A stretch of 64,000 nucleotides of DNA from Zobellia amurskyensis (GTDB lineage: Bacteria > Bacteroidota > Bacteroidia > Flavobacteriales > Flavobacteriaceae), in contig NZ_RCNR01000014.1 of NCBI RefSeq assembly GCF_009725985.1, positions 1 through 64,000 on the forward strand, in the 5' to 3' direction. Position numbers and translations under genes: made by a program. This document shows positions 3,274 to 41,851 of the stretch, one piece after another (the stretch's first letter is position 1; each line of letters begins with the position of its first letter). The notes under the pieces are model-generated. The model was not told the origin of the DNA. It saw only the letters and a list, made by a program, of their open reading frames with translations, and did no database searches.

Positions 3274-3534
3274 TTTTATCGAGTTTTATAAAACGATTTA
3301 GAAGAGGATTATAATAAGAAGTACAAAACAATATTTTGAACCGATTACAAATTAACCTTAAAATTGTGTGAATCCATTTTCCAATTTTATCAAGCGTCGG
3401 CACTATTTTAACCCTATAAGCTTAGTTTGTACTTTAGTCGATTTTCGTAACGCTAAAGAGAGCTAAATTGAATTATTCGGTCATAAAAAATAAAATTAAT
3501 TTACCTTTCATGAGAATTGCTTTATATTCAAAAC

Positions 3535-6500
3535 ATGCTTAGAATTTCTCATTTTTTCTTTCTGTTTCTAACAATCTGTACCCTAGGTTTTTCTACTGTG
3601 GTCTGCGGGCAGGGGAATGTGAGCAATTTTGAGATCACTCATTTTCAATTGCCCATAGAAACGGAGGCCCAAGACATTTTAGAAGACCGTTATGGTTTTC
3701 TTTGGATAGCTTCCACTAACGGTCTATGGCGTTTTGATGGAGGTAATTTTAAGAATTACAGTAAAAATGAGCACGAGCAGACCAGCATTACGGACAACCA
3801 TATTTCTTATTTGTTTGAAGATAGTGCCGGAGTTTTATGGGTGGGTACCTATGGCGGAGGGTTATTGAAATATGACCGTGAATATGACCGTTTTCAACGT
3901 TTTATACATGACGAAAATAACCCGGAGAGCCTTAGTTTTAATGAAGTTAGGGTAATTTATGAAACCGCGGACAAAGCTTTTTATATTGGCACGGATGGTG
4001 GCGGATTAAACTTAATGGACCGGGAAACGGGAACTTTTAAGAGATACCAACACAACACATTGGACGTTGAAAGTATTAGCCATAACAACGTACTGGACAT
4101 ACAGGAAAGTCCGGATGGACGCCTTTTTATAGGTACGTGGATCGGGCTGAACATCTTTCATCCCAATACGGGAAAATTCACGCGTCTTGTTAAAAATATA
4201 CCAGGGGGTTCGCATTCGTATCCCGTTTTAGGTTTTTATAATGACCTTATTGTTTCTAGCGGTAAGCTGTTTACTGTAGATAAAAAGAACCAGTTTCATA
4301 AACTAGACTTGCCACAAGATTGGGTAAGTGCCATACAGCCGGATAATGAGAAGAATTGCTGGATAGCGTACCGTGACCAAATAGCTATCATAGATTCGGA
4401 TTTTAAGACCAAGAAATTAATAGCGCTGAACGAGCGGTTTAATGAAGGGTCTTTTTACATACGGCAAATATTCCATAACCCTGCCAAAGAAGATTCTTGG
4501 GCTTTGGATGGAGCAGGCCATTTTTTTCACATTAAAAAATCATCGGTTATTTTTGAGCCGTTTATAGCGTCTGGTGTAAGTGGAAAAATTCTAAAAACAA
4601 ATAACAATTACTGGGTGTTTAATAAGGGCACCATTACCATTTATGACAAAGCTACCCATACACTCGTTAGGACGCTAAAAGGCTTTGTTCACAGAACGTA
4701 TATGAGTTCCTATGATAAGGAAACCATTTGGGCGGCAGATACCAATTCCATCTATCAGTTTACCGAAGCCGGGGAGACCATCTTAAAAACGAACAGGAAA
4801 TCTGCCGAACTTTTTGGTCTTTTGGAGACCAGTGCCGGACTGGTTTGGACGGGCGAGGTTCTGGGTGCACGTATCTACGACCCCAAAACGGATACCACCG
4901 TGTATTTTGACTGTGACCCCAATGATCCTAATGGTATAGGATATTTTCATCGTGCCAATGAACTTTTTGAAGATTATAAAAATCAAATTTGGATCGGGAC
5001 CAATGGTGATGGGGTAAAACGATATCTGCCCGAGAAAAACCAGTTTGTACACTACAGACACGAAATTGGGAATACCGCTACGGTAAACAACAATTTTATA
5101 AATGTGATTTTTGAGGATGCGGACCGTACCCTTTGGGTGGGTACCAACTCCGGGCTTTGTAGTTATGACTCGCAAAAAGATTTGTTTGTTCAGTATGATA
5201 ATAGCCTCCTTAAGGATAGGATAATTAATAGTATTGAACAAGATGGCAAAGGAAATTTGTGGTTGGGTACAAGAAACGGACTTATAAAACTGGATGCCAA
5301 GAACAATGTAGTCCGTATTTTAAATGAACAGGACGGACTCATTTCGCAGAAAATAAATATTTCCAGTTCGGTTACGGATAAGGGCCATATGGTTTTTTCC
5401 ACCAACGCGGGATTAATGACTTTTGACCCGGAAAAGGTAGTGCCCAGCACCAAAACACCATCGGTCTATATTTCTAAATTATGGGTGAACAATGAACTGG
5501 TTTCACCTAAGAGCGATTACATAAAAAAGAGTATTGAGGTAGAGGACCATCTGCAGTTGTCCTATAAAGACCAAAAGATAGAACTCGGTTTTCAGGCCAT
5601 ACAGTACGAGAATACGCAACGGTGCCAATATGCCTATATGCTGGAGGGTTTTGATAAGGACTGGACCATGGCCAACGGCACACGGGCTACCTATACCAAC
5701 TTACCGTCCGGTAACTATACTTTTCTCTTAAAGGCTACCAATGAAGATGGCGTTTGGACGGATAAGTTAAAAAGATTGAACATTGTGGTGACTCCGCCGT
5801 TTTGGGAGCGACTGTGGGTTCAGATTCTTGCCGGTATTCTAGTAGTTTTATTAGGGGTTTGGGGCTTTCGGTTCTTTTTACTGCGAGAGAGGACAAAAAA
5901 TATGTTTGAAATAGAGAAACAACGCGTGTATCAATTTGAAGAGCTGGCGCAGATGAAATTGCGGTTTTTCACCAATATCTCCCATGAGCTACGAACGCCC
6001 TTAACGCTTATTACCTCTCCGTTAGATAAGTACATTCGTAAAGGCACCAAGCCAGATACCAAGGTGTTGCAGATGATGCACAGGAATAGCAACCGTTTGT
6101 TGGAACTCGTTAATCAGATACTGGATTTTAGAAAACTGGAAGGAAATCAGCAACTACGGATTAAACCACATGATGAACTTTTGGTCTGCACCAACATGTA
6201 TACGGCCTATGAGTATTGGGCAAAGGAAAAGAATATCAATTTTAAATGTGATGCTCCTGAAACGGATTATACGCTTTATTTTGATGAAGATGTTATTGAA
6301 AAAATGGTAAGCAACCTAGTTTCCAATGCATTTAAGTTTACGGCAAAAAACGGAAAAATTACCTTAAAGGCATCTTACGCAAATCTTGAAATTGATAAAG
6401 ATGATAAAGTAAAGAAGGGAAGTCTCCGCATTGAGGTAATTGACAACGGAGCAGGTATTCCGGAAAAATACCAAGAGAAAGTTTTTGAACGTTTCTATCA

Positions 6501-7449
6501 GTTAGATGAAAACCCTAATAAAGGATATAGCAGTGGTATAGGGCTTTCTTTAATATCGGAATTGGTAAAGTTGCATAACGGAAGCATAGCGCTAAAGAGT
6601 GAAGAGGGCATAGGTTCGCATTTTACCATAACGTTGCCCATAGGATATAAAGATTACGAAACTAGTGTTGACGAAACGGTCGTGCCACCTGCAGAAATAA
6701 CATCGGGAGAAACCGTTGTATTGCTCATTGAGGATAATGAGGATATCAGGAATTACTTAACGACAGAGCTATCCGAAGAGTATGTTATTCTTCAGGCCGA
6801 TAATGGTAAGGACGGTTTTCAGCTGGCGTTAGAACATATTCCGGATATTGTTATCAGTGATATTATGATGCCTTTATTCGATGGAATTCAAGTGGCAAAT
6901 CAATTAAAGGGAAATGAGTTAACCGCCCATATTCCGTTGATGTTTTTGACGGCCAAAACGGGCTTGGAAAACAAGTTGAAAGGGCTGGAAACGGGCGCCG
7001 AAGATTATATTGAAAAGCCTTTTAATGTCTCGGAGATCAAAATGAAAATCCAGAACCGTCTAAAAAGCAGGCATCAGCTTATCAAAAAATATCAAAAAGA
7101 AGAGTTGTTCGTAGAACCTACATCATCGGTAGACCAATATTTAGTAAAGGTGAACGAAGTTATTGATGCGCATCTGGAAAACTCAGATTTCTCGATCGAC
7201 TTCCTATGCGATGAATTGGCCATTGGACGGTCGCAATTGTACCGCAAAATTCAAGCCCTTACCGGTAAAACTATAATTGAATACATCAACACTTATAAAC
7301 TGTCTAAAGCCATGCCCATGCTACAAGATGGTAGCCTAAGCATAAAGGAAATTGCCTTTAAAGTAGGGTACAATGATAACCGATATTTTAGTCGAATTTT
7401 TAAAAAGGAGTTTGGGCACCCGCCGTCACATTACGTACCCAGTAAATAG
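3535..7449 (+). CDS. hybrid two-component system protein (HTCS), one-protein sensor/regulator
   Basis: A 1304-residue one-chain sensor, kinase and regulator of the kind that controls glycan-utilisation genes in Bacteroidota. In order: signal peptide (1-26); a long beta-propeller of reg_prop repeats (recurring LWIASTNGLWRF / LWVGTYGGGLLKY motifs); Y_Y_Y domain (about 675-742); one transmembrane helix (about 757-782); HisKA with the phospho-histidine in SHELRTPL (His817); HATPase (about 919-1035); receiver with phospho-acceptor Asp1109 in ISDIMMP; AraC-type HTH (about 1216-1302). I use the ATG at 3535, because the in-frame start 18 bases upstream is TTG and adds nothing to the signal peptide. 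It sits directly before the propeller/PSD1/DUF1501 run and probably controls it, sensing a periplasmic oligosaccharide. The ligand is unknown. Confidence 0.93.
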   Translation: MLRISHFFFLFLTICTLGFSTVVCGQGNVSNFEITHFQLPIETEAQDILEDRYGFLWIASTNGLWRFDGGNFKNYSKNEHEQTSITDNHISYLFEDSAGVLWVGTYGGGLLKYDREYDRFQRFIHDENNPESLSFNEVRVIYETADKAFYIGTDGGGLNLMDRETGTFKRYQHNTLDVESISHNNVLDIQESPDGRLFIGTWIGLNIFHPNTGKFTRLVKNIPGGSHSYPVLGFYNDLIVSSGKLFTVDKKNQFHKLDLPQDWVSAIQPDNEKNCWIAYRDQIAIIDSDFKTKKLIALNERFNEGSFYIRQIFHNPAKEDSWALDGAGHFFHIKKSSVIFEPFIASGVSGKILKTNNNYWVFNKGTITIYDKATHTLVRTLKGFVHRTYMSSYDKETIWAADTNSIYQFTEAGETILKTNRKSAELFGLLETSAGLVWTGEVLGARIYDPKTDTTVYFDCDPNDPNGIGYFHRANELFEDYKNQIWIGTNGDGVKRYLPEKNQFVHYRHEIGNTATVNNNFINVIFEDADRTLWVGTNSGLCSYDSQKDLFVQYDNSLLKDRIINSIEQDGKGNLWLGTRNGLIKLDAKNNVVRILNEQDGLISQKINISSSVTDKGHMVFSTNAGLMTFDPEKVVPSTKTPSVYISKLWVNNELVSPKSDYIKKSIEVEDHLQLSYKDQKIELGFQAIQYENTQRCQYAYMLEGFDKDWTMANGTRATYTNLPSGNYTFLLKATNEDGVWTDKLKRLNIVVTPPFWERLWVQILAGILVVLLGVWGFRFFLLRERTKNMFEIEKQRVYQFEELAQMKLRFFTNISHELRTPLTLITSPLDKYIRKGTKPDTKVLQMMHRNSNRLLELVNQILDFRKLEGNQQLRIKPHDELLVCTNMYTAYEYWAKEKNINFKCDAPETDYTLYFDEDVIEKMVSNLVSNAFKFTAKNGKITLKASYANLEIDKDDKVKKGSLRIEVIDNGAGIPEKYQEKVFERFYQLDENPNKGYSSGIGLSLISELVKLHNGSIALKSEEGIGSHFTITLPIGYKDYETSVDETVVPPAEITSGETVVLLIEDNEDIRNYLTTELSEEYVILQADNGKDGFQLALEHIPDIVISDIMMPLFDGIQVANQLKGNELTAHIPLMFLTAKTGLENKLKGLETGAEDYIEKPFNVSEIKMKIQNRLKSRHQLIKKYQKEELFVEPTSSVDQYLVKVNEVIDAHLENSDFSIDFLCDELAIGRSQLYRKIQALTGKTIIEYINTYKLSKAMPMLQDGSLSIKEIAFKVGYNDNRYFSRIFKKEFGHPPSHYVPSK

Positions 7450-7568: not shown

Positions 7569-8624
7569 ATGAAAAACTCCAGACGAAACTTCATTAAACA
7601 GTCGGCTTTTGCAAGCGCCGCCCTAACTGTTCCCACATATAGTTTTGGGATAATAAACAAACCAAAATTTTCAGACCAAATTATAGGCCATGGCGATTTT
7701 ACATATCGCGTCCATAAAGAATGGGGAAATCTAAATCCCGCAAATACCCCAGTGAAAAACTGCCATGAAATGGTGATGGATTCTAAGGGTAGACTTATCA
7801 TGGTAACCGATGAGATCAAGAACAATGTTATTGTTTATGACAAGTCCGGAAAACTATTAAAAACCTGGACACATAATTTAAAGTCCGCTCACGGGTTAAC
7901 CTTGTCCAAAGAAGGTGAAGTTGATATGCTTTTTATTACTGATAACGACGGTGCCATACTAAAAACAACTGTTGAAGGAAAGGTACTCATGGAGTTGCCA
8001 AATCCGCATGATATAGGCGTGTATGAAAAGGACCAAAAGTATCGTCCTACAGAAACCGCTGTAGGTCCCAACGGAGATATCTATGTAGCGGATGGTTATG
8101 GATCCGATTTCATTTTACAATACACCAAAGACGGAGAATTTATCCGAAAATTTGGAGGACGCGGTTTTGAAGACCATTTGTTCAGTACGGCCCATGGTGT
8201 TACCATAGATGATAGAGACCCCAACAATATTACCCTGTTGTGTACCTCTAGAAAACATAACTCGTTTAAGCGCTATAGCCTAGACGGTAAATACCTATCC
8301 AGTATTTTTCTGCCTGGAGCCTTTGTTTGTAGGCCGGTTATAGATGGCGAGAATTTATATTCTGGCGTATGCTGGTCCAGATTAAAATATTTGGAACAAA
8401 CTCCCGATTCGGGTTTTGTTACCATATTGGATAAGAACAACAAAGTAATCTCAAACCCTGGTGGGACGGCTCCTGTTTATGAGAAAGGGGAGTTACAGGT
8501 TATGGTGCAAGATGTGCCGCTTTTTAATCACTGTCATGATGTTTGTATAGACGACGATAAGAATATTTACGTCTGCCAGTGGAATGCCAATAAAACATAT
8601 CCTATAAAACTTGAAAGGGTATAA
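7569..8624 (+). CDS. Tat-exported six-bladed beta-propeller (NHL-repeat) protein
   Basis: A 351-residue protein starting with a twin-arginine signal (NSRRNFIKQSAF, then a hydrophobic stretch to about residue 27). The rest is NHL-like propeller sequence with recurring blades such as PVKNCHEMVMDSKGRLIMV, PTETAVGPNGDIYVADGYG and FNHCHDVCIDDDKNIYVCQW. Such propellers are scaffolds or lactonase/lyase-like enzymes. The repeated C-H pairs (NCHE, NHCHDVC) could bind metal, but I cannot assign a reaction. It is first in a run of four same-strand genes: 3 bases separate it from the PSD1 gene, which argues for one transcript and joint action in the periplasm. Tat export suggests folding or cofactor loading in the cytoplasm. 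Confidence 0.8.
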   Translation: MKNSRRNFIKQSAFASAALTVPTYSFGIINKPKFSDQIIGHGDFTYRVHKEWGNLNPANTPVKNCHEMVMDSKGRLIMVTDEIKNNVIVYDKSGKLLKTWTHNLKSAHGLTLSKEGEVDMLFITDNDGAILKTTVEGKVLMELPNPHDIGVYEKDQKYRPTETAVGPNGDIYVADGYGSDFILQYTKDGEFIRKFGGRGFEDHLFSTAHGVTIDDRDPNNITLLCTSRKHNSFKRYSLDGKYLSSIFLPGAFVCRPVIDGENLYSGVCWSRLKYLEQTPDSGFVTILDKNNKVISNPGGTAPVYEKGELQVMVQDVPLFNHCHDVCIDDDKNIYVCQWNANKTYPIKLERV

Positions 8625-8627
8625 TCT

Positions 8628-10931
8628 ATGAAAAAAATCGTTCTACAACTTTTCATTTTAGGGGTACTCCTGGTCTCTTGTAAGGAAGAGGGCCAATACG
8701 CTTCCATTCCGCAGAAAAAAGTGCCGGATAGGGTAGACTATAATTTTGACGTGCGGCCCATATTATCGGACAAGTGTTTTAATTGCCATGGTCCGGATGC
8801 CAACAAAAGATCGGAAGATTTGCGCTTGGATACTCCTGAAGGTGCTTATGGGGCGTTAAAAGATTCAGAGAATGAGTTTGCCATAGTACCTAGGAACATT
8901 GAGAAATCGGTGGTGTATCAGCGGATTACGGCTAAAGATAGTTCCAACCTTATGCCTCCCGTGGACTCCAATTTAAAACTATCCGACTACGAAATAAAGG
9001 TGTTGAAAAAGTGGATAGAACAAGGTGCGGTCTATGATGCGCATTGGGCTTTTAGTCCGGTGGAAAAACCCCAAATTCCTAATACGGATTCAGATTGGGT
9101 AAATAATGAAATTGACCATTTTGTGCTGAATAAACTGGATGAGGTGGACCTTCAGCCTAATGAAATAGCAGATAAAGAACGTTTGTTAAAAAGGGTTTCA
9201 TTAGATATTACGGGTTTACCGCCTACACCGGAAATGCGAAAAAAGTTTATAAGTACTAATAATACCAATGCTTACGAACAAATAGTAGATGAATTGCTGG
9301 GCAGTGACCATTATGGTGAAAAAATGGCAAGTCATTGGTTAGATGTGGCACGCTATGCAGATTCACACGGTTTTCAGAACGATCAGTTGCGTACCATGTG
9401 GCCATGGCGAGATTGGGTGATTTATGCCTTTAACGAAAATTATAGCTACAAAAAGTTTGTAACCTATCAGTTGGCAGGAGATTTAATGCCCAAGAAAAAT
9501 ATAGAAACCATATTGGCAACAGGCTTCAATAGAAACCACAAAATAAACCAAGAAGCGGGCATAATTGAAGAAGAGTATCGAATAGAAAATGTAACTGATA
9601 GAACCAACACCTTTGGTAAGGCATTTTTAGGGTTGACTTTAGAATGTGCCAAGTGCCATGATCACAAGTACGACCCTATTTCACAGAAAGAATACTTCAA
9701 CACCTTTGCCTTTTTTGACAAGGTAATCCATAGGCCAAAGGCAATGGGAGAAGTTTTGGCCGAAGCTCCATTGATCACAATTACCGATGAAGTTGTTGAA
9801 AAGGAACTTCCGTTTGTGAACAAAAAAGAACCAGAGGATATAGAGGTCATGGTTATTGAGGAGAAGGCGGATATTAGAACCACTCACATATTGAACAGAG
9901 GTGTTTACGACGATAAAGGTGAAATTGTTCAGCCAAGCACACCGGAGTCGGTTTTAAAGTTTGATACACTTGTTTATGATAGCAATCGTCTTGGTCTTAC
10001 CAAATGGCTTTTTGATAAGAAAAATCCATTGACCAGTAGGGTCTTTGTTAATAGGGTATGGCAAGAAATTTTTGGGGAAGGTATTGTTAGGTCTTCGGGA
10101 GATTTCGGTATGCAGGGAGATTTACCCACGCATATAGGTCTTTTAAACTGGCTCTCCGCAGATTTTATGGAGAACGATTGGGATATGAAACGTTTGGTGA
10201 AGCAAATAGTAATGTCATCTACCTACAAGCAATCTTCTGTAGTTGACGATAAAAAACTCGCCATAGATCCAGACAATCGGTATTTGTCGCATATGACCCG
10301 ATTGCGTTTTAGTTCGGAGACCATTAGAGACCACGCACTGGCAACTAGTGGTTTATTGAACGAGGAGATAGGAGGCCGTAGCGTAAAGGTGTATCAGCCC
10401 GATGGTATTTGGGAAGCGGCCAGTTCAGGTCGTGGTATTTTGGCCAATTATGTACAAGACCATGGTGAAGACCTGTATAGAAGGGGGATTTACATTTTTA
10501 TAAAACGAACCACGTTGCCACCGGTACAGCTAACTTTTGATGCCGCTACACGTGACCAATGCGAGGTAAAACGGCAATCTACCATGACACCGCTTCAAGC
10601 ACTTATTGCTTTGAACGATCCTACTATTTTGGAAGCTGCCCGGGTATTATCGGAAACCTTAATACAAGAGGAAAGTACCGTAGATGAAAAGATAACGGAG
10701 GCTTTTGGACGTATTATGAGCAGGACCATAAAACCCCAAGAAAAGGAAATGCTGGTGGGATATTACCATGATCAAGAAGAAGCATTCGCGAACAATAAAC
10801 AGAAGGCAAAAGATTTTATTGAAGTAGGGGAGTACCCTATTTTGAAAGGTAGAGATGAGGTTAAGGTTGCGGCACTCATGCAAATCATTCATACTATCTA
10901 CAATCTAGAAGAAACAATAGTAAAAGGTTAA
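8628..10931 (+). CDS. PSD1 cytochrome c / DUF1549 / DUF1553 lipoprotein
   Basis: A 767-residue exported protein with the domain chain first known from Planctomycetes. A lipoprotein signal (lipobox LLVSC, Cys18) is followed by a PSD1 c-type cytochrome domain with heme motif CFNCH (Cys50/Cys53/His54) and a distal region with LMPP. DUF1549 (about 150-360) carries a second CxxCH motif, ECAKCHDHKYDP (Cys340/Cys343/His344). DUF1553 (about 450-700) holds the conserved FVNRVWQEIFGEGIV and SGDFGMQGDLPTH stretches. Family members are tied to polysaccharide catabolism, but their reaction is unproven; electron transfer through the hemes is the natural inference. It is shorter than many planctomycete relatives, which often carry extra glycan-binding inserts. 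It sits between the propeller gene and the DUF1501 gene. Confidence 0.88.
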   Translation: MKKIVLQLFILGVLLVSCKEEGQYASIPQKKVPDRVDYNFDVRPILSDKCFNCHGPDANKRSEDLRLDTPEGAYGALKDSENEFAIVPRNIEKSVVYQRITAKDSSNLMPPVDSNLKLSDYEIKVLKKWIEQGAVYDAHWAFSPVEKPQIPNTDSDWVNNEIDHFVLNKLDEVDLQPNEIADKERLLKRVSLDITGLPPTPEMRKKFISTNNTNAYEQIVDELLGSDHYGEKMASHWLDVARYADSHGFQNDQLRTMWPWRDWVIYAFNENYSYKKFVTYQLAGDLMPKKNIETILATGFNRNHKINQEAGIIEEEYRIENVTDRTNTFGKAFLGLTLECAKCHDHKYDPISQKEYFNTFAFFDKVIHRPKAMGEVLAEAPLITITDEVVEKELPFVNKKEPEDIEVMVIEEKADIRTTHILNRGVYDDKGEIVQPSTPESVLKFDTLVYDSNRLGLTKWLFDKKNPLTSRVFVNRVWQEIFGEGIVRSSGDFGMQGDLPTHIGLLNWLSADFMENDWDMKRLVKQIVMSSTYKQSSVVDDKKLAIDPDNRYLSHMTRLRFSSETIRDHALATSGLLNEEIGGRSVKVYQPDGIWEAASSGRGILANYVQDHGEDLYRRGIYIFIKRTTLPPVQLTFDAATRDQCEVKRQSTMTPLQALIALNDPTILEAARVLSETLIQEESTVDEKITEAFGRIMSRTIKPQEKEMLVGYYHDQEEAFANNKQKAKDFIEVGEYPILKGRDEVKVAALMQIIHTIYNLEETIVKG

Positions 10932-10947
10932 AGGTCAATCAAACGAT

Positions 10948-12402
10948 ATGGATAAAGAAGTTTTTGAACATTATTTGAATACGAACCGAAGACATTTTTT
11001 AGGTAAAATGGCCATGGGAATGGGCGGCGTGGCTTTGGGCTCGCTTTTAATGCCCGATTTGTTGACAGGAAAGAAAGCCGCCGAAGAACAGTTGCCTCTA
11101 GGCTTAAAACACTTTGCGGCCAAAGCCAAACGAATCATCTTATTGGTGCAAAACGGGGCGCCTTCTCAATTGGAGACATTTGACTACAAACCTAAGTTGA
11201 ACGACATGTTCGGTCAAGAACTTCCGCCATCAATTAGAGGAGAGCAAAAATTGACAGGCATGACCGCAGGTCAAGAATCGTTTCCGTTAGTGGGGTCTAA
11301 ATTCAGCTTTAAACAATATGGGGAATCGGGAACTTGGGTAAGTGAGCTCTTGCCAAATATTGCCAAGATTACAGATGATATATGCATGATTAAAAGTATG
11401 CATACAGACGCTATTAACCATGACCCAGCACTCACATTCATGCAAACTGGGGCGCAGGTGGGTAACAGACCTAGTATTGGTTCTTGGTTTAGTTATGGAC
11501 TGGGTAGTGAGAACCAAAATTTGCCCGCATATTGTGTTTTGCTTTCAAAGGGAAAAGGTAACGGTCAAGGTGCGTATTCAAAATTATGGTCCAACGGGTT
11601 TTTAGATAGTTCGCACCAAGGTGTGCAATTGAGTGCCAGTGAAGACCCAATTCTATATCTGAACGACCCAAAAGGTATGGATAGGGAAACACGTCGTAAG
11701 ATGTTAGACCACTTGGCTTCGTTAAATCAGCTTGGGTATGATGAGTTTGGTGATCCAGAAATCCCTGCAAAAATTAAGCAGTACGAAATGGCCTTTAGAA
11801 TGCAAACGGCCGTACCGGAAATTACGGACGTATCCAAAGAACCAGATCATATTAAGAAAATGTATGGGCCGGATTGTATGGTGCCTGGTACATACGCAGC
11901 CAATTGTTTGTTAGCTAGAAAACTTTCTGAATCCGGAGTGCGTTTTGTACAATTGTACCATCAGGGCTGGGATCAGCATAATGATTTGGTAGGGGAAATT
12001 AAAGGGCAGGCCAAAGATGTAGATATGGCATCGGCAGCATTGATTACCGATTTAAAACAAAGGGGACTTTTAGATGAAACCTTAGTGATATGGAGCGGAG
12101 AATTTGGTAGAACCAACTATTGCCAAGGGAAGCTGACCAAAGATAATTACGGACGAGACCACCATCCACGTTGTTTTAGCATCTTCATGGCCGGTGGTGG
12201 CGTAAAGGCTGGGATGTCTTATGGTAAGACAGATGAGTTAGGATATAACATTGTAGAAAGCCCTGTGCATATTCATGATTTACATGCAACGATCATGCAC
12301 TTAATGGGCTTGGACCATGAAAAGCTAACGCACAAACACCTAGGTAGAAGATTTAGGTTGACCGATGTTCATGGTCATGTGGTAAAAGATATTCTAGCGT
12401 AG
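10948..12402 (+). CDS. DUF1501 protein (sulfatase/phosphatase-fold relative), Tat-exported
   Basis: A 484-residue protein beginning with a Tat-like signal (NRRHFLGKMAMGMGGVALGSLL). DUF1501 proteins share the alkaline-phosphatase/sulfatase fold and almost always travel with PSD1/DUF1549/DUF1553 proteins. Visible family features include AKRIILLVQNGAPSQLETFDYKP near the N-terminus, HQGWDQHNDL, VIWSGEFGRTNY and GRDHHPRCFSIFMAGGGVKAG, which contribute metal-binding Asp and His residues. The usual FGly/Ser nucleophile signature of sulfatases is not present. It starts 16 bases after the PSD1 gene and ends 4 bases before the next one, so the three are surely co-transcribed. It probably forms a complex or sequential pathway with the PSD1 protein; the reaction is unknown. 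Confidence 0.9.
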   Translation: MDKEVFEHYLNTNRRHFLGKMAMGMGGVALGSLLMPDLLTGKKAAEEQLPLGLKHFAAKAKRIILLVQNGAPSQLETFDYKPKLNDMFGQELPPSIRGEQKLTGMTAGQESFPLVGSKFSFKQYGESGTWVSELLPNIAKITDDICMIKSMHTDAINHDPALTFMQTGAQVGNRPSIGSWFSYGLGSENQNLPAYCVLLSKGKGNGQGAYSKLWSNGFLDSSHQGVQLSASEDPILYLNDPKGMDRETRRKMLDHLASLNQLGYDEFGDPEIPAKIKQYEMAFRMQTAVPEITDVSKEPDHIKKMYGPDCMVPGTYAANCLLARKLSESGVRFVQLYHQGWDQHNDLVGEIKGQAKDVDMASAALITDLKQRGLLDETLVIWSGEFGRTNYCQGKLTKDNYGRDHHPRCFSIFMAGGGVKAGMSYGKTDELGYNIVESPVHIHDLHATIMHLMGLDHEKLTHKHLGRRFRLTDVHGHVVKDILA

Positions 12403-12406
12403 CTAT

Positions 12407-14512
12407 ATGAAAAAAACAGTCCCTTTCTTTTTAAATGTTTTATTCTTTCTGCATGTTTTGCTGGCATTTTTGGTGCTCTTTGAAGGATATATGAAAGTTC
12501 CGTTTTGGGTTCAACCTTTGGGAAGAATGCATCCATTGGTTTTACACTTTCCGGTAGCGTTTATTGTGCTTTTGGTATTGCTCAATTTGTTCAAAAAACA
12601 ACTGGACCCGGCTTCTTTTGAAAAGATAAACTTCGCTCTCTTATTACTCACATCGTTTACCACGGTTCTAGCAACCCTCATGGGATTATTGTTATCCCTA
12701 GAAGGTTATGACTCGGAGCTGTTGACGCTTCACAAGTGGGTAGGTATTGCCTTGTGTTTTGTCATATATGCTTTGGTTTGGTGTTACACTTATAAAAAAG
12801 TATTTCAAATATTACTATATGTTGGTTTGATAGGAGTGCTCGTAGGCGGGCACTTTGGAGCGGGATTGACCCATGGCACCAATTTTTTAATGGAGCCTAT
12901 TACTGCTTCAAAAGAAGAAATCGTAGATGAAAATACGCCTATTTATTCGGCGTATATAGCTCCTGTTTTAAAAGCGAAATGTACCAGTTGCCACAATCCC
13001 CAAAAGCATAAAGGCGATTTGGATTTGACCACGATTGAAGCCATTGCCCAAGGTGGTGAAAATGGAGAGGCATGGTTAGCCCATAATGCGGAAGAGAGCC
13101 TCCTGTTAAAAAGAGCGGCCTTACCCATTGAAGATGAAGAGCATATGCCACCCGAAGGAAAACCACAACTAACGGCAGCAGAAATAGAATTAATGCAGAT
13201 TTGGATTGAACATGGCGCCGATGACCAAATTACTTATGCTCAACTAAAAGAAGGGGATACCTTAAAACAACTTGTTACCAGCAAATGGCTAAAATCTATT
13301 GAGGATAAGCAGTATGAGTTCGATTTTGTAACGGCTCAAACCATCAAGGAACTCAACAACCCATATAGAACGGTTGTTCAAAAATCACCTACGTCACCAG
13401 CTATTGACGTTGTTATATTCGGTAGAAGCGCTTTTCAAGAAAATAATATAACCGAGCTTGAAAAGGTAAAAGATCAAGTAGTGTATTTGAATTTGGCCAA
13501 TCTTCCCATAACAAGCGAGCATTTGCAGACCATAGGAAAGTTAGATAACCTAGAGCACTTGGTGCTCAATTTTACGGATATCAATAGTGAATCTTTAGCA
13601 TCACTGGCAAGTTGTGTTGAACTAGAAACGTTATCCTTGTCAGGAACAGCTATAGACGTAACCGTATTGGAACACTTAAAAGGCTTAAAGAGTTTAAAGG
13701 AAGTGTTCGTATGGAATACCAATTTGGAAGCAGAGGATATTGAGGTGTTAAGAAGCGAATTGCCCAACGTTATTATTAATGAAGGTTATATTCCAAATCC
13801 AGAAGAGGAGCTACAATTAACACCACCAACTTTGGTCAACGAAGGGAACATAATTAGCTCCGGTGATTTGATTTCTCTTGGTCATAAAATGAACGGAGTT
13901 ACCATTCAATATACTTTGGATGGGAGTGAGCCGGACTCCACTTCAATAGCTTTTGAAAAACCGTTTTCGTTGGATTTGAAAGGGAAAAGGGAACAAACCA
14001 TAAAGACATTAGCTCATAAAGAAGGCTGGTTGCCCAGTAAATCTATTTCCTATGTTTTTTACGATAGAGGCCTAGTGCCCGATGGTATTGAAGTTTTGTA
14101 TCCTGGAGTTTTAAGCTCGTATACAGGTGATACCGAAAAAATACTGACGGATGCCGTGCGGAAAAATGAAAAAATAGGATACTCTAAATTCTGGGCATCC
14201 TATAACAAAAATCCACTTGAGGCTATTGTTGACTTTAGCGCAACCTCTCCCGAAATAAAGGAAGTGGTTTTAAGCTGTGGCATCAACTTTAGACAAAAGA
14301 AATCGCCATTGGATCATATAGCGGTTTGGGCCAGTGATGATAAGGAAGATTGGCAACTGATTAAAAAGCAAAGTTTTGCCAATGAAAACAATTTAGACCG
14401 GCTTAAGGAGATATCTATGCAGCTGCCAAAGAAATCGTATAAATACATAAAAATAGTAGCGAAGCCGCAAAAAGGCCAAACCATACGCGTCAATCAATTG
14501 TTCTTTTTCTAA
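12407..14512 (+). CDS. membrane-bound PSD1-type cytochrome with leucine-rich repeats and C-terminal beta domains
   Basis: A 701-residue multi-domain protein. Residues 1-165 form about five transmembrane helices of the DUF2231-like type, with HPLVLHFPVAF, whose His residues are often heme ligands. A PSD1-type cytochrome domain follows (about 175-280) with heme motif CTSCH (Cys192/Cys195/His196) and distal HMPPEGKPQLTAAE. Then come leucine-rich repeats (about 350-460: VYLNLANLPITSEHLQTI, LEHLVLNFTDIN, LETLSLSGTAID), a chitobiase-C/FN3-associated segment (TIQYTLDGSEPDSTS, about 500-545), and a discoidin-like beta domain at the C-terminus. It plausibly anchors the PSD1/DUF1501 system to the inner membrane and hands electrons to the respiratory chain; that is inference. 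Its stop codon overlaps the LacI gene end by four bases. Confidence 0.82.
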   Translation: MKKTVPFFLNVLFFLHVLLAFLVLFEGYMKVPFWVQPLGRMHPLVLHFPVAFIVLLVLLNLFKKQLDPASFEKINFALLLLTSFTTVLATLMGLLLSLEGYDSELLTLHKWVGIALCFVIYALVWCYTYKKVFQILLYVGLIGVLVGGHFGAGLTHGTNFLMEPITASKEEIVDENTPIYSAYIAPVLKAKCTSCHNPQKHKGDLDLTTIEAIAQGGENGEAWLAHNAEESLLLKRAALPIEDEEHMPPEGKPQLTAAEIELMQIWIEHGADDQITYAQLKEGDTLKQLVTSKWLKSIEDKQYEFDFVTAQTIKELNNPYRTVVQKSPTSPAIDVVIFGRSAFQENNITELEKVKDQVVYLNLANLPITSEHLQTIGKLDNLEHLVLNFTDINSESLASLASCVELETLSLSGTAIDVTVLEHLKGLKSLKEVFVWNTNLEAEDIEVLRSELPNVIINEGYIPNPEEELQLTPPTLVNEGNIISSGDLISLGHKMNGVTIQYTLDGSEPDSTSIAFEKPFSLDLKGKREQTIKTLAHKEGWLPSKSISYVFYDRGLVPDGIEVLYPGVLSSYTGDTEKILTDAVRKNEKIGYSKFWASYNKNPLEAIVDFSATSPEIKEVVLSCGINFRQKKSPLDHIAVWASDDKEDWQLIKKQSFANENNLDRLKEISMQLPKKSYKYIKIVAKPQKGQTIRVNQLFFF

Positions 14513-15546
14513 GGCTGGGCCTTGATCAAGGGTATGGTGGAATCCCGCTCGATCATAGTGGTTTTGATGACTTCGGTTTCAAATGGTTTTTCGGGATCGT
14601 TTTGTTCTATTCGGTTTACCAATTGTTGAGCGGCACGTTGCCCCATATGATATCCATGCTGACTAATAGATGTTAGGCTTGGTACTACGTATTTGGGTAA
14701 AATTCCGTTAGTGAAACAGATGATGGAAAGTTCTTCAGGAATTTTTATTCCCAAAGAATTTGCAGTCAATAATGAGGTGACACCGGCTTCTTCCTCTAAA
14801 CCTAAAATGGCATCTACTTTTCCTGCGGATAGTAGTTTTCGTATTTCAACCTCCATAAAAGACTTTTCCAACTTTTCGAAAATTAAGCTCTGGTCCAAGT
14901 CTATATTATGGTCCTTTAGACACTGATGATAACCGTTTATTCTCAGTTTTGATATTTCAAGGTCGCCCAAGAGCGAAACCACGGCGATACGCTTGCATCC
15001 GCTTTTTATAAGATGTTCCGTAGCATTGTAAGCAGCCTTGGTATCATCTATGGTTACTTTGTCACAGTCCAGTTTTGATGATACACGATCAAACATTACT
15101 ACAGGTATACCTTTGTTCAAGAAGGGCTCAAAGTGATCGGTATTATCAAGTTTTCCTGTTTCCTCCGCAAGCGAAACTAAGAGTCCGGATATAGCGCCTT
15201 TGCGTAACATTTCGGTGATGGCAACCTCCTTTTTATAAGATTCGTTGGAGATGCAGGCAATCATATTATAGCCGCGATCATTCAATACTTTTTCTACACC
15301 ACTAATAACTTGGGCAAAAAAGTAGTTGAGGATATTGGGAATGATGACACCAACAGATTGCGAAGGTTCTTTTCTAAGATTGATTGCATTAAGGTTAGGA
15401 CGGTATTTATGTTCCCGTGCATACGCAATAATTTTCGCCTTGGTTTTGGCGCTTATTTCATGGCTATCATTTAACGCCTTGGATACGGTAGATTTAGAGA
15501 CTTTAAAATGCTTGGCAATATCGTCTAAACTAAGTTTTCGCTTCAT
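14509..15546 (-). CDS. LacI-family transcriptional regulator
   Basis: A 345-residue repressor with the N-terminal helix-turn-helix LSLDDIAKHFKVSKSTVSKALNDSHEIS (about residues 4-31) and the hinge KAKIIAYAREHKYRPN. The periplasmic-binding-protein-like sugar domain (about 60-340) starts SVGVIIPNILNYFFAQVISGVE. It is transcribed divergently from the xylB-xylA-transaldolase operon across 332 bases. This makes xylose or a derivative the likely effector and the operon the likely target. The 3' end overlaps the facing cytochrome/LRR gene by four bases. An autoregulatory role is common in this arrangement but is not shown here. Confidence 0.9.
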   Translation of the reverse strand: MKRKLSLDDIAKHFKVSKSTVSKALNDSHEISAKTKAKIIAYAREHKYRPNLNAINLRKEPSQSVGVIIPNILNYFFAQVISGVEKVLNDRGYNMIACISNESYKKEVAITEMLRKGAISGLLVSLAEETGKLDNTDHFEPFLNKGIPVVMFDRVSSKLDCDKVTIDDTKAAYNATEHLIKSGCKRIAVVSLLGDLEISKLRINGYHQCLKDHNIDLDQSLIFEKLEKSFMEVEIRKLLSAGKVDAILGLEEEAGVTSLLTANSLGIKIPEELSIICFTNGILPKYVVPSLTSISQHGYHMGQRAAQQLVNRIEQNDPEKPFETEVIKTTMIERDSTIPLIKAQP

Positions 15547-15878: not shown

Positions 15879-17363
15879 ATGTATAGTATAGGTTACGATA
15901 TAGGAAGTTCGTCAATAAAAGCAGCCTTGGTTGAGGTAAGTACGGGTAAACCCGTTGCTGTAGTGAGTGAGCCTAAAACAGAAATGGATATTCTTGCCAT
16001 TAACAATGGTTGGGCAGAACAAGATCCAGATACATGGTGGAAACACGTTTGTACCGCTACAAAAACATTGTTATCAGAAAATAATATAAAACCAGAAGAG
16101 GTTACGGGTATTGGTATTTCATACCAGATGCACGGATTGGTGGTTGTTGATGAGAACCTAAAGCCTTTGCGTGATTCCATTATTTGGTGCGATAGTAGAG
16201 CGGTAGGTATTGGTCAAAAAGCATTTGATGAGTTGGGCAACGACCGTTGTAGTGAGAACTTATTAAACTCGCCCTCTAATTTTACCGCATCCAAATTAAA
16301 GTGGGTCAAAGAAAATGAACCGGAAACTTTTGAACGTATTCATAAGTTCATGCTACCGGGAGATTATATAGCCTGTAGATTAAGCGGCACGGCAAATACT
16401 ACTTTATCCGGCTTGTCCGAAGGTATATTCTGGGATTTTAAAACGAATAGTTTAGCCACTTGGTTATTGGACTATTACGGATTAAACGAATCCCATGTGC
16501 CTGAAATAGTAGATACTTTTTCGGTTCAAAGTAAAGTGTCCGAACAAGGAGCAAAAGAATCAGGTTTAAAAGAAGGCACGCCTATTTTATACCGTGCGGG
16601 AGATCAGCCTAACAATGCATTGTCATTGAATGTTTTTAATCCAGGAGAGGTAGCGGCAACCGGTGGTACATCTGGTGTTATTTATGCCATTACGGATAAT
16701 CTTTCGGTTAAAGAGAGCTCGCGGGTAAACAACTTTGCTCACGTAAATTATAGTGAAGCCAACAGGTTTGTGGGTAAACTACTTTGTATAAACGGAGCCG
16801 GTATCCAATACCGATGGTTGTTGAACAACTTAAGTGTTGCTTCATACGATGAAATGAACGATTTGGCCAATTCGGTACCACAAGGTTCGGATGGTGTAAA
16901 AATATTGCCATTCGGTAACGGTGCAGAACGCATGTTGAACAATGTGGATTTAGGGACGAATATCTTTGGTATCAACTTAAACAACCACACCAAGGCACAT
17001 TTGTGCAGAGCTTCATTGGAAGGTATTGCCTTCTCTTTTGTGTATGGTATGGAAATCCTTAGGTCAGACGGTATTACCGCTACTAAAATACGGGCAGGAA
17101 ACGATAACTTGTTTCGCTCGGAAATTTTCTCGAACACTATAGCGACACTTATTGATCGCGAAATAGAAATATATAATACCACAGGCGCTATTGGCGCAGC
17201 TAGGGCCTGTATTTTACGCGATGGCGATTTTTCAAGCTTTGGGGAACAGATTATGGCCAATGATTATGTCATGAGCTATAAACCTTCCGCAGAAAAGGAA
17301 GCATTGCAATCCGCATATTCCGCATGGAAAAAAGAATTAGAACAATTATTAAAAAACAAGTAA
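15879..17363 (+). CDS. xylB: xylulokinase
   Basis: A 494-residue FGGY-family kinase that phosphorylates D-xylulose to D-xylulose 5-phosphate with ATP. The phosphate-1 loop is [18 protein letters not shown] at the N-terminus. The substrate region [29 protein letters not shown] (about 83-110) is typical of xylulokinases (MHG motif). The C-terminal ATPase half holds [15 protein letters not shown] and [16 protein letters not shown]. Length is normal. One base separates its stop from the xylose isomerase start, so the two are translated together. The divergent LacI gene probably controls it. Confidence 0.95.
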
Positions 17364-17364
17364 C

Positions 17365-18690
17365 ATGGCATTATTAGGAGACAAAGAGTACTTTAAAGGT
17401 ATTGGAGACATCAAGTTTGAAGGGAAGGAATCAGACAACCCTTTAGCGTTTAAATATTACAACCCGGATCAAGTTGTTGCGGGCAAGACCATGAAGGAAC
17501 ACTTCAAGTTTGCCATTGCATACTGGCATACGTTCTGTGGACAGGGTTCTGATCCATTTGGCCCAGGTACACAAAGTTTTGAGTGGGATAAATCTTCTGA
17601 TGCCGTTCAAGCTGCAAAAGACAAGGCAGATGCCGCTTTTGAGTTTATCAGCAAAATGGGTTTCGATTATTTCTGTTTTCATGATTTCGATTTAATTCAA
17701 GAAGGTCCAACTTTCGCTGAGTCAGAAAAAAGATTAGCTACTATTACTGAGTATATCAAGGAGAAAAAAGCGGCTTCAGGTATTAAGTTATTGTGGGGTA
17801 CGGCTAACTGTTTTTCTAACCCAAGGTACATGAACGGTGCTGCTACCAACCCTGATTTTGATGTGGTTGCTAGAGCAGGTGGTCAAGTAAAATTGGCTTT
17901 GGATGCTACTATTGCATTAGATGGAGAGAATTATGTTTTCTGGGGAGGTCGTGAAGGTTATATGTCTCTTTTGAACACCAATATGGGTCGCGAATTAGAC
18001 CATATGGCACAGTTCTTAACTATAGCTAGAGATTATGCCCGTAAACAAGGTTTTAAAGGTAATTTCTTTATTGAACCAAAACCAATGGAGCCAACTAAGC
18101 ACCAGTATGATTTTGATTCGGCTACGGCAATCGGTTTCTTAAAAGAGTACGGATTGGATAAAGATTTCAAAATTAATATTGAAGTAAACCATGCAACTTT
18201 GGCACAACACACTTTTCAGCATGAAATGGAAGTTGCCGCTAAATCCGGTATGTTAGGAAGCTTGGATGCCAACCGTGGGGATTACCAAAACGGATGGGAT
18301 ACGGATCAGTTCCCAAACAATATTTTGGAGACTACAGAAGCTATGTTGGTTTTCTTGCAAGCAGGAGGCTTACAAGGTGGTGGTGTAAACTTTGATGCTA
18401 AAATCAGAAGAAATTCTACAGACCTTGAAGATATTTTCTTAGCTCATATTGGAGGTGCGGATACGTTTGCAAGAGGTTTAATTACGGCCGATAAAATTAT
18501 CCAGTCTTCTGATTATACCAAGCTTCGTGAAAACCGTTACAGCTCTTTTGATTCAGGAAAAGGAAAAGAGTTTGAAGCAGGTAAATTAAGCCTTGAGAAC
18601 TTATACGATTTAGCAACTACAAATGGTGAGTTAGAGCTGAAGAGTGGTAAGCAAGAATTGTTCGAAAACATTGTTAATCAGTACATCTAG
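17365..18690 (+). CDS. xylA: xylose isomerase
   Basis: A 441-residue class II xylose isomerase that interconverts D-xylose and D-xylulose in the cytoplasm. Catalytic and metal motifs are visible in order: [15 protein letters not shown] (catalytic His), [34 protein letters not shown] (metal-binding Glu, Lys), [18 protein letters not shown], and [18 protein letters not shown] (metal-binding Asp). Length fits the longer class II enzymes. It lies in the middle of the xylB-xylA-transaldolase operon, which funnels xylose to the pentose phosphate pathway. Confidence 0.97.
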
Positions 18691-18695
18691 AATAT

Positions 18696-19352
18696 ATGAA
18701 GTTTTTTATAGATACAGCAAATTTAAACGACATTCAAAGCGCCTATGAGTTAGGTGTTTTGGATGGCGTAACTACCAACCCTTCTTTAATGGCTAAGGAA
18801 GGCATTACCGGGAAAGACAATATTTTAAAGCATTACTTGGCAATTTGTGAAAAAGTTGAAGGTGATGTTTCTGCTGAGGTTATTGCAACCGATTATGCAG
18901 GTATGATCAAAGAAGGTGAGGAGCTAGCCGCTTTACATCCTCAGATCGTGGTAAAATTACCAATGATTGCAGATGGCGTAAAAGCATGTAAATATTTCTC
19001 TGATAAAGGAATAAAAACAAACGTTACGCTTGTGTTTTCTGTAGGTCAGGCATTATTGGCTGCTAAAGCTGGAGCTACTTATGTTTCTCCATTTTTAGGT
19101 AGGTTAGATGATATTTCTACAGACGGTATGCGTTTGATCGAGGAAATTCGTCTTATATATGATAACTACGATTTTGACACGCAAATTTTGTCGGCTTCTG
19201 TACGTCATACCATGCACGTTATCAACTGTGCTAAATTGGGGTCAGATGTAATGACAGGTCCATTGTCAGCAATAGAAGGTCTGCTTAAGCACCCACTTAC
19301 CGATAGTGGTTTAGAGAAGTTCTTGGCAGATTATAACAAGGGAAATGAATAA
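18696..19352 (+). CDS. transaldolase (short, FSA/TalC-like type)
   Basis: A 218-residue TIM-barrel enzyme of the short transaldolase/fructose-6-phosphate aldolase group (usual length 210-220). Motifs: [36 protein letters not shown] at the N-terminus, [16 protein letters not shown] with the Schiff-base lysine, and [15 protein letters not shown]. In this operon it most likely acts as a transaldolase, recycling pentose phosphates formed from xylose. Aldolase activity on fructose 6-phosphate cannot be excluded from sequence. It starts 5 bases after xylA, and a hairpin follows about 70 bases after its stop. Confidence 0.93.
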
Positions 19353-34761: not shown

Positions 34762-35901
34762 ATGTTTAAATCCGTTGTATTATTTTTTGCAATTCTGTTG
34801 TTTTTGTTCGGTTTTGGAAAAATCAAGGAAAGTAAATTTCAAACCGAAGACGATGTTGCCAGTCTCAAAAAAGTGTACGAGAAAGATTTTTATATAGGAG
34901 CGGCTATTAACGATCGGATTATTACCGGAAACGATACTAAAGCGCTTAAGGTTTTAAAAGAAGAATTCAATTCTCTTAGTCCGGAAAATGTAATGAAATG
35001 GGAAGCACTTCACCCATCTCCCGACACCTATAATTTTGAAATGGCAGACCAATACGTGGCCCTTGGTAAAAAGAACAATATGCACATTGTAGGGCATACC
35101 TTATTATGGCATAGCCAAATTGGTCAGTGGATGAATTCCGTTAAGGATAGCGCTACAATGGCTAATTATATTAAAGAGCACATAACTACGGTTGCCAGTA
35201 GGTACAAGGGAAAGATAGATACTTGGGATGTGGTAAACGAAGCCCTAAATGAAGATGGTTCCCTACGGGAATCTGTTTTTTTGAAAGTTATGGGTGAACG
35301 GTATTTGGAATTTGCATTTAAAATGGCAGAAAAAGCGGACCCAACCGCCGAACTATATTACAACGATTACAACATGTGGAAACCTAAAAAGAGAGAAGGA
35401 GCCATTCAGCTTATAGAAACACTTCAGAAAAACGGAGCCAAGATAAATGGGGTGGGTATGCAAGGCCACTGGGGCCTGACGGAGCCGTCGTTGGAAGAAG
35501 TAGAGAAAAGTATTATAGCCTATTCCAAATTAGGGATTAAGGTGGCTATTACCGAATTGGACGTAACCGTTCTACCAAATCCGTGGGAACTTGAAGGAGC
35601 GGAAATAAGTCAGAATTTTGAGAATAGCGAAGAAATGAACCCGTATCCAGATGCTTTGCCAGATTCTGTAGAAGTACAGTTGGCGGAGCGTTTCCGCGAT
35701 ATTTTTAAACTCTTCTTGAAGCACAGCGATAAAATTGATAGGGTTACGTTTTGGGGCGTGAACGATAGAAGCTCATGGCTCAATAATTGGCCCATTAAAA
35801 ATAGAACCAATTACCCTTTACTTTTTGATAGAAAATTCGAACCAAAAAAAGCATACCATGCAATAACTCAACTTAAAGCCGAATCAATCAAACAACAGTA
35901 A
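34762..35901 (+). CDS. GH10 endo-1,4-beta-xylanase
   Basis: A 379-residue glycoside hydrolase family 10 enzyme that cuts the xylan backbone with retention. The N-terminus is a signal peptide or membrane anchor (MFKSVVLFFAILLFLFGFGK). The barrel shows LSPENVMKWEALHP, HTLLWHSQIGQWM, the acid/base Glu160 in DTWDVVNEALNEDG, and the nucleophile Glu265 in VAITELDVTVLP. TFWGVNDRSSWLN comes near the end. It is a single catalytic module without an appended carbohydrate-binding domain, so it probably works on oligosaccharides near the cell. It leads the xylanase-symporter-GH43 operon. Confidence 0.96.
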   Translation: MFKSVVLFFAILLFLFGFGKIKESKFQTEDDVASLKKVYEKDFYIGAAINDRIITGNDTKALKVLKEEFNSLSPENVMKWEALHPSPDTYNFEMADQYVALGKKNNMHIVGHTLLWHSQIGQWMNSVKDSATMANYIKEHITTVASRYKGKIDTWDVVNEALNEDGSLRESVFLKVMGERYLEFAFKMAEKADPTAELYYNDYNMWKPKKREGAIQLIETLQKNGAKINGVGMQGHWGLTEPSLEEVEKSIIAYSKLGIKVAITELDVTVLPNPWELEGAEISQNFENSEEMNPYPDALPDSVEVQLAERFRDIFKLFLKHSDKIDRVTFWGVNDRSSWLNNWPIKNRTNYPLLFDRKFEPKKAYHAITQLKAESIKQQ

Positions 35902-35906
35902 TACCC

Positions 35907-37364: not shown

Positions 37365-37392
37365 TAAAAGCTAAACAAAACACAGATATCAT

Positions 37393-38415: not shown

Positions 38416-38432
38416 TTTTACAATGAAAACAG

Positions 38433-38457
38433 AGGGACTATTATTTTGATAGTCCCT
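38433..38457. terminator. bidirectional terminator between converging xylan operons
   Basis: AGGGACTAT (38433-38441) pairs with ATAGTCCCT (38449-38457) around a 7-nt loop. A rich sequence lies on the left and T rich sequence on the right. It overlaps the stop codon of the FG-GAP lipoprotein gene and serves both strands. Confidence 0.72.
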
Positions 38458-41767: not shown

Positions 41768-41820
41768 TTGTTCGTGTTCAAAAATTTAAGGTACAGTTTT
41801 TAAAAATTAGAATAAAAACA

Positions 41821-41851
41821 AAAACAGTGTGTCGACCAAACACACTGTTTT
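41821..41851 (-). terminator. hairpin between susD and the FG-GAP gene (terminator or attenuator)
   Basis: A perfect 11-bp stem, AAAACAGTGTG (41821-41831) / CACACTGTTTT (41841-41851), with a 9-nt loop. Read on the minus strand, it is followed by a T-rich run. It would end or dampen the susCD transcript before the FG-GAP gene. Confidence 0.65.

Follow-up and report, generated by a model that had tools for sequence, protein, structure and literature searches.

The opening stretch of contig 14 of Zobellia amurskyensis (NZ_RCNR01000014.1, bases 1 to 64,000; hereafter the window) raises the question of what a set of exported, putatively redox-active proteins best known from planctomycetes does in a member of the Flavobacteriaceae. 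The set comprises four consecutive genes, encoding an NHL beta-propeller protein, a lipoprotein with the domains PSCyt1, PSCyt2 (DUF1549), and PSD1 (DUF1553), hereafter referred to as PSD1, a DUF1501 protein, and a membrane cytochrome, and it resides in a genome of 5.14 Mb assembled into 120 contigs. The data presented below indicate that this planctomycete-type PSD1/DUF1501 module is real, conserved, and of a known kind. As to its function, we consider the chances about even that it is a periplasmic sugar or glycan oxidation module that feeds electrons to the membrane cytochrome.

The four open reading frames (ORFs) lie on the forward strand with gaps of 3, 16, and 4 bases between them, and the gene for a hybrid two-component system (HTCS) regulator, with the full hybrid architecture by Pfam, ends 119 bases before the NHL gene (Table 1; ORFs below 90 amino acids were left out of the gene tables). 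Three CxxCH motifs are present in the module, two in PSD1 (residues 50-54 and 340-344) and one in the membrane protein (residues 192-196), and since shuffled versions of PSD1 or of the membrane protein yield approximately 0.001 such motifs each, these are not due to chance. They are putative heme-attachment sites. Twin-arginine N termini were found on the NHL and DUF1501 proteins, the latter with R14 and R15 in 50/50 alignment rows, and a lipobox-like LLVSC, judged by eye, stands at the start of PSD1. Thus, the features from which the first-pass annotation of this DNA had started, namely four tightly packed exported genes on one strand with Tat and lipoprotein signals, three CxxCH motifs, and an upstream HTCS, are all in place. 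A promoter scan of positions 7300-14700 returned 18 sites compared to 18.0 in shuffled sequence, and terminator-like sites in the same interval numbered 13 compared to 7.5 (standard deviation 3.0), most of them within genes; no conclusion is drawn from either count.

The module shares its Pfam domains and conserved neighbour families with the PSCyt1/PSCyt2-PSD1 proteins of planctomycetes and Verrucomicrobia (PMC5615132, PMC2754498; these and the other papers cited are represented here by excerpts, to which all statements about them refer). In Verrucomicrobia, the PSCyt genes are described as adjoining two unknown gene families and lying near sulfatases, along with carbohydrate-binding fusions, their functions being unknown (PMC5615132), and in Rhodopirellula baltica, where each of two of the domains occurs in 41 copies, a redox function has been suggested (PMC2754498). 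DUF1501 has been termed uncharacterised (PMC4452313) and is listed as a conserved module of compartmentalised PVC species (PMC4960237). The excerpts from PMC4982196, PMC9296495, PMC11495043, PMC5888151, and PMC6653060 give no function for these families, and none of the excerpts cited assigns a tested function to PSD1 or DUF1501. Given that the domains have been published before, together with the idea of a carbohydrate-related or redox role for them (PMC5615132, PMC2754498), the description of this locus as a candidate for an undescribed pathway was too strong. The system nonetheless differs from those of planctomycetes and Verrucomicrobia in that it belongs to Bacteroidota, has a membrane cytochrome at every orthologous locus, at times an NHL protein, and, in flavobacteria, an HTCS, and in that its paralogues stand beside particular sugar pathways.

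Conservation was assessed at 21 Bacteroidota loci treated as orthologous by identity, with no tree: the window, four flavobacterial loci (DUF1501 82-97% identical), and 16 among the matches listed (70-76%) in a related-locus search that covered the best 80 loci of a longer list. PSD1, DUF1501, and the membrane cytochrome occur together in 21/21, so that the core of the gene order is kept in relatives. An NHL gene is present at nine of these loci and missing from 12, a sulfatase homologue is present at four, and xylB and xylA adjoin the module at two, the window and a congener genome (G001); contig ends cut some loci, and absences of outer genes are therefore upper bounds. The HTCS cluster was found upstream in 5/5 flavobacterial orthologues and in 0/16 of the others. 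We also considered whether the module is xylose-specific in general, and rejected this, as xylA and xylB adjoin just 2/21 loci; the xylose operon to which the first-pass annotation had drawn attention is indeed present beside the module, but as a trait of the genus and not of the module. In the family as a whole, 33 of 149 genomes carry PSD1, and across 90 loci (83 fetched plus seven from Z. amurskyensis) DUF1501 is present at 90/90, the membrane cytochrome cluster at 62, and NHL at 36. In 4/4 loci from Aquiflexum and Algoriphagus (L107-L110), the orthologous module is followed downstream by a gene that, judged by eye, resembles a SIS-type sugar isomerase, the four copies belonging to one cluster.

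The Z. amurskyensis genome encodes seven PSD1 proteins (eight rows, one protein being split in two; second-piece rows of split PSD1 matches were dropped from counts), each adjoining a DUF1501 gene (7/7), and several of these modules lie in recognizable sugar contexts. At one (L018), the neighbours include by Pfam an altronate/galactarate-type dehydratase, a mannitol dehydrogenase-type protein, Amidohydro_2, SDR, and MFS proteins, and rhaM, together with two sulfatases and a Tat-like Gfo/Idh protein, a gene content read as an L-fucose-type locus. Another (L022) has GH106, RhaT, and an arabinose/fucose isomerase-like protein and is read as an L-rhamnose locus, while a third (L019), with L-arabinose isomerase, a class II aldolase, and an SSF transporter, corresponds to an L-arabinose locus, the pathway being named from its Pfam families. 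Two further copies (L020, L021) are accompanied by a TIM-barrel protein and a membrane cytochrome. At the remaining locus (L017 819-9442, contig C24), a molybdopterin oxidase, a 2Fe-2S protein, a two-CxxCH protein, a membrane cytochrome, DUF1501, and PSD1 follow one another on one strand, possibly forming a complete periplasmic dehydrogenase.

In this genome, the single copy of xylA and both Arabinose_Iso_C genes are within 10 kb of a PSD1-DUF1501 pair, as are two of the three rhaM genes. Approximately 3.4% of the genome is within that distance, which would place three isomerase genes there by chance with a probability of about 4e-5; xylA and Arabinose_Iso_C were, however, chosen after the loci had been viewed, so this figure is not a fair test. 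Loci in relatives point in a similar direction. Three (L032, L033, L054) are read as being of N-glycan type: they encode members of GH92, GH18, and GH20 alongside fucosidases and an asparaginase-type amidase, identified by Pfam and in some cases by BLAST. In another (L238 9538-17920), DUF1501, membrane cytochrome, and NHL homologues are followed by look-alikes of GntR, an epimerase, galK, and galT, all named by eye; this is possibly a galactose-linked case, in which the stretch before DUF1501 reads N. The table of sugar enzymes detected by BLAST drew its references from module loci and is biased for that reason; its use was confined to describing loci.

To place these contexts on a comparative footing, 83 module regions of up to 20 kb (some shorter) from outside the Z. 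amurskyensis genome were set against 39 control regions of the same genomes, hand-picked at round coordinates and in some cases on contigs bearing a module (L238 is not counted among them). A sulfatase or SusC/D homologue was found in 32/83 module regions compared to 5/39 controls (p = 0.0055), and a wider set of carbohydrate-type markers in 48/83 compared to 12/39 (p 0.0066). In this combined form the first-pass link to a sulfatase is supported; a sulfatase homologue on its own is kept at few orthologous loci. The proposed HTCS link, by contrast, is limited to the flavobacterial orthologues, HTCS-like genes being no commoner near modules than in controls (11/83 compared to 6/39, p 0.78), and the ASPIC family is likewise not enriched (4/83 compared to 2/39, p 1.0).

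On the favoured reading, that of a sugar or glycan oxidation module, PSD1 would carry two c-type hemes, one in PSCyt1 and one inside the PSCyt2 domain, and together with its constant partner DUF1501, and with the NHL protein where present, would oxidise one particular monosaccharide unit or a glycoside of it. The hemes of PSD1 would hand electrons on to the membrane cytochrome, at its PSCyt1 heme, and these would enter the respiratory chain. The substrate of the window module would most likely be xylan- or xylose-derived, and the HTCS would serve as its inducer-sensing regulator. A bolder form of this proposal, which we offer tentatively and regard as rather doubtful, is that PSD1-DUF1501 pairs constitute a new class of periplasmic enzymes, each oxidising a specific sugar substrate. 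A heme protein with a fold absent from the Protein Data Bank (PDB) would act with a sulfatase-fold partner that has lost the sulfatase nucleophile, and bacteria would maintain a separate module for every sugar (xylose, arabinose, fucose, rhamnose, N-glycan), with a His-rich membrane cytochrome linking each to respiration.

A known system invites comparison. The FAD-dependent glucoside 3-dehydrogenase works with gluconate 2-dehydrogenase subunit 3 and cytochrome c, and thus resembles our working model in oxidising sugar in the periplasm with electrons delivered to cytochrome c. One relative locus (L061) carries both sets, with a GMC oxidoreductase, gluconate 2-dehydrogenase subunit 3, and a 3-keto-disaccharide hydrolase directly upstream of the module, whereas no GMC, FAD, or gluconate 2-dehydrogenase subunit 3 family was detected by Pfam in the window module. 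It is conceivable that the module is an electron sink only, with separate GMC or molybdopterin periplasmic dehydrogenases oxidising the sugar and PSD1 and the cytochrome taking no part in catalysis. Besides the GMC set in L061, this would account for a GMC-like gene in L113 (BLAST, 27%), for the molybdopterin/2Fe-2S dehydrogenases beside the module in L017 and L099, and for parts of such enzymes in L101 and L094; the sets in L061, L017, and L099 are also in keeping with the favoured reading. Yet a dehydrogenase gene of this kind was detected in just 5/90 loci (L017, L061, L094, L099, L101; BLAST with one reference each) and is missing from the window module, a control region (L234) also has GMC-like genes, and a plain electron carrier would need no constant DUF1501 partner, so we judge this alternative unlikely, though not negligibly so.

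The predicted structure of DUF1501 bears on a second alternative. The AlphaFold2 (AF2) model (pLDDT 84.1, pTM 0.82) matched sulfatases and alkaline phosphatases in Foldseek, with 173 PDB matches at E<=0.001 and a best E of 6.7e-7 at probability 1.00, although the best match had a TM-score of only approximately 0.33, indicating divergence. Consistent with this, an hhalign comparison to 23 sulfatases gave an E of 4e-8 with the match at the C-terminal part, while a sequence-profile search of the PDB with DUF1501 returned 0 matches at E<=0.01. In the global form of the profile alignment, H158 aligns with the formylglycine Cys of sulfatases and E385-F386 with the Asp-His metal pair; H158, D342, H344, E385, F386, R388, D404, and H405 are each present in 50/50 rows, and the CxPSR formylglycine motif of S1 sulfatases is absent, His158 occupying that position. 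As judged from model and alignment, then, DUF1501 has an alkaline phosphatase/sulfatase-like fold with non-canonical active-site residues, and keeps the fold but not sulfatase chemistry; its metal site would be a changed one, the nucleophile and one metal site having presumably been rebuilt around the invariant His and the Glu-Phe pair. Were DUF1501 nevertheless the working enzyme, a sulfate or phosphate ester hydrolase or related transferase, the heme proteins would anchor it or sense redox. The fold agrees with this, and sulfatase homologues occur near 16/83 modules compared to 3/39 controls, not significant alone (p 0.12). Given the replacement of both the Cys and the Asp-His pair throughout the alignment, and the true sulfatases beside some modules, next to which such an enzyme would be redundant, we find this explanation quite improbable.

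DUF1501 also occurs with another partner. Among 31 genomes, 60 DUF1501 proteins scored above cut-off (five rows below it were dropped, and adjacency was taken from coordinates); 42 stand beside PSD1 and 17 beside DUF1800, and the 60th (G024) is the one at L238 whose neighbouring stretch reads N. Since 17/17 DUF1800 matches in these genomes adjoin DUF1501, the latter has two partner families. Operons in which DUF1800-DUF1501 pairs accompany chitin synthase genes, along with a Tat motif, are already in print (PMC5122149); they have the DUF1501 partner family in common with the window module and differ in that PSD1 and DUF1800 have no detectable similarity and that the DUF1501 proteins of this branch have much lower Pfam scores. 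Hidden homology between PSD1 and DUF1800, which might be suspected from their common partner, received an hhalign probability of 0.4% (P 0.16) and is not claimed. The Z. amurskyensis genome also carries a DUF1800-DUF1501 pair (L023 7057-10273, contig C20). Additionally, PSD1-DUF1501 genes were seen on contigs of metagenome-assembled genomes labelled Akkermansia muciniphila (L165, L166); as this species is said to be without the DUF1501 module (PMC4960237, excerpt), these labels are doubtful.

For PSD1 itself, the second CxxCH motif is present in 31/31 rows of the alignment, and both motifs are invariant in a narrower alignment of 15 rows. M109, present in 29/31 rows with a gap in the other two, is a possible axial heme ligand. 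The AF2 model is confident (pLDDT 83.6, pTM 0.86) and returned 0 Foldseek matches to the PDB at E<=0.001; by sequence profile, PSD1 matched FoxE in its cytochrome c part (E 2e-4), plus two weaker hits (E 0.02 and 0.03). In the model, the second motif falls inside an all-helical domain without a solved relative.

The NHL protein has R5, H66, H108, H209, and H323 invariant in 25/25 rows, and residues 87-247 align by profile with peptidyl-glycine amidating lyase (E 2.9e-14). This lyase binds Zn through a His triad at blade starts, and the four invariant His of the NHL protein would fit a metal-site pattern, making a metal site plausible; a lyase reaction would be a guess. TRIM-family NHL domains match as well or better, and the alignments obtained are to TRIM-type NHL proteins only. 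These features raise the possibility of heme oxygenase or peroxygenase chemistry, in which the second PSD1 heme would activate O2 or peroxide and oxidise or dealkylate substituted sugars, with the NHL protein completing the reaction in the manner of the amidating lyase. The universality of the second CxxCH motif, its setting in a domain with no solved relative, and the lyase match all fit such a scheme. However, the quality of the TRIM matches implies that the likeness to the lyase may be one of fold only, the NHL gene is missing from more than half of the orthologous loci, and Pfam detected no monooxygenase family in the window module, and we regard this scheme as very unlikely.

The membrane cytochrome combines a DUF2231-like membrane part, the PSCyt1 motif, an LRR-like segment, and a tail resembling CHB_HEX_C_1, Fn3_assoc, and F5_8C, the matches to DUF2231, F5_F8_type_C, and LRR_4 all being below the Pfam cut-off. 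In an alignment of 89 rows, C192, C195, and H196 are each conserved at 99%, H42, H47, H109, H149, and H156 at 97-99%, and M247 at 100%. Hydropathy segments and an assumed periplasmic C-terminus would place the five His at the periplasmic face, where they could make up a site for heme b or a quinone. Since the same tail families occur on a GH20 hexosaminidase at L032, a relative locus, the tail plausibly binds glycans.

Several observations weigh against sugar oxidation as the function of the module. No protein binding FAD, NAD, or molybdenum adjoins the module in the window, so that any catalytic oxidase would have to be PSD1, DUF1501, or the NHL protein themselves, and we know of no precedent for these as an oxidase. 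The first CxxCH motif of PSD1 is present in 25/31 rows; the remaining six are gapped at this position and have one CxxCH only, which means that not every PSD1 would carry two hemes. No single marker family was significantly enriched near modules, only unions being so (sulfatase as given above; SusC/D alone 17 compared to 3, p 0.11). In a fairer test than that within Z. amurskyensis, among nine arabinose-isomerase-like genes in 26/32 other PSD1-bearing family genomes, three are within 12 kb of a module and two within 10 kb; 0.2 would be expected within 12 kb (P ~7e-4), but this limit was set after the distances had been seen and the close relative G001 supplies one of the three, making the result a mixed one. 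As most of these genes (6/9) lie away from modules, the sugar pathway does not need the module. In line with this, control genomes such as those of Escherichia coli, Bacillus subtilis, and Bacteroides ihuae carry Arabinose_Iso_C and rhaM, while PSD1 was found in 0/14 of these controls. Co-occurrence with respiration is uninformative, with COX1 in 97/99 sampled genomes and PSD1 in four of the 99, Z. amurskyensis included.

The orthologous loci outside the genus add to these points, as the fetched flanks of all 19 contained no xylA or xylB homologue, and their contexts are mixed, some being beside housekeeping genes (named by eye); sugar specificity may consequently be limited to some clades. 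Such contexts would be expected if the module had a general envelope or stress function and its proximity to sugar operons were hitchhiking in a sugar-rich genome, as would the report for R. baltica that an ECF factor whose expression rises under each of three stresses probably targets a PSD1 gene, RB10051 (PMC2754498). This explanation has difficulty in accounting for the adjacency to modules of each of the three sugar isomerase genes that were looked for in the Z. amurskyensis genome, for the pairing of different paralogues with different sugars, and for the relative rarity of carbohydrate markers, taken together, in control regions, and we see only a slim chance that it is correct.

Returning to sugar oxidation, the surroundings of the module within the genus are consistent with a xylose-related substrate (Table 1). 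Downstream lie xylB, xylA, and a transaldolase gene, an isomerase pathway for xylose, followed in order by a second HTCS, sugar-acid genes (29.6-33.2 kb), an ECF sigma factor, and a xylan-type utilisation locus, of which GH10, GH43, and SusD lie 20-29 kb downstream of the module. The order of the utilisation locus is kept in G001, with GH10, MFS_2, GH43, ASPIC, SusD, and SusC-like genes coming after the second HTCS at 79-92% identity (tblastn). Module, xylose operon, and GH10/GH43/SusCD thus form one block in 2/2 genomes of the genus, and by its gene content the module would head a block devoted to xylose and xylan use in both Zobellia genomes. The convergent LacI-type gene between module and xylB, its cluster present at 2/21 orthologous loci, probably regulates the xylose operon and is not part of the module.

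Table 1. Features of the window, with the module first.
Feature	Position	Strand	Basis and remarks
NHL beta-propeller, Tat-type signal	7569..8624	+	Pfam NHL
PSCyt1-PSCyt2(DUF1549)-PSD1(DUF1553) lipoprotein	8628..10931	+	Pfam, all three domains above curated cut-offs; PSD1 E 5.6e-94
DUF1501 protein, Tat-type signal	10948..12402	+	Pfam E 6.6e-155
Membrane cytochrome	12407..14512	+	PSCyt1, Fn3_assoc, CHB_HEX_C_1 above Pfam cut-off
HTCS, hybrid two-component system	3517..7449	+	Reg_prop, Y_Y_Y, HisKA, receiver, HTH_18 (Pfam); AraC-type output
Sulfatase	1621-3273	-	Near module
LacI-type regulator	14509..15546	-	Convergent; NCBIfam matches below cut-offs
xylB (kinase) and xylA (isomerase)	15879-18690	+	Named by eye
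xylB, xylA, transaldolase	15879..19352	+	Transaldolase by Pfam; xylose isomerase pathway, context
RraA-like, MR_MLE, SGL, SDR genes	29605-33214		Likely oxidative sugar-acid pathway
GH10, MFS_2, GH43, FG-GAP/ASPIC, SusD, SusC-like	34762..45656		Pfam, except SusC-like; xylan-type utilisation locus, context
FG-GAP/UnbV_ASPIC protein	38441-41767	-	Beside SusCD
SusC-like ORF	43386-46417	-	Named by position
Gfo/Idh oxidoreductase, FGE-sulfatase type protein, GHMP kinase	48580-52433		In a row; kept in G001

Some details of the block are recorded here in their own right. The four sugar-acid genes, judged from their families a likely oxidative sugar-acid pathway, had no tblastn match at 1e-20 in the G001 block stretches (L071, L239, L240). 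The SusC-like ORF has only 756 amino acids from a TTG start and no Pfam match at 1e-5; a 235-amino-acid ORF lies directly upstream of it, and the SusC gene may be split. The FG-GAP/UnbV_ASPIC family represented beside SusCD also occurs near PSD1 modules at four other loci (L020, L063, L066, L068).

PSD1-type proteins are numerous in planctomycetes, and here a single genome, from a genus with cultured seaweed degraders, has seven modules, of which several adjoin a sugar pathway. The sugar-linked modules turn a vague carbohydrate hypothesis into a concrete one that pairs one deletion with one sugar. If sugar oxidation is indeed what the module carries out, the degradation of algal and plant polysaccharides would gain a step of respiratory oxidation.

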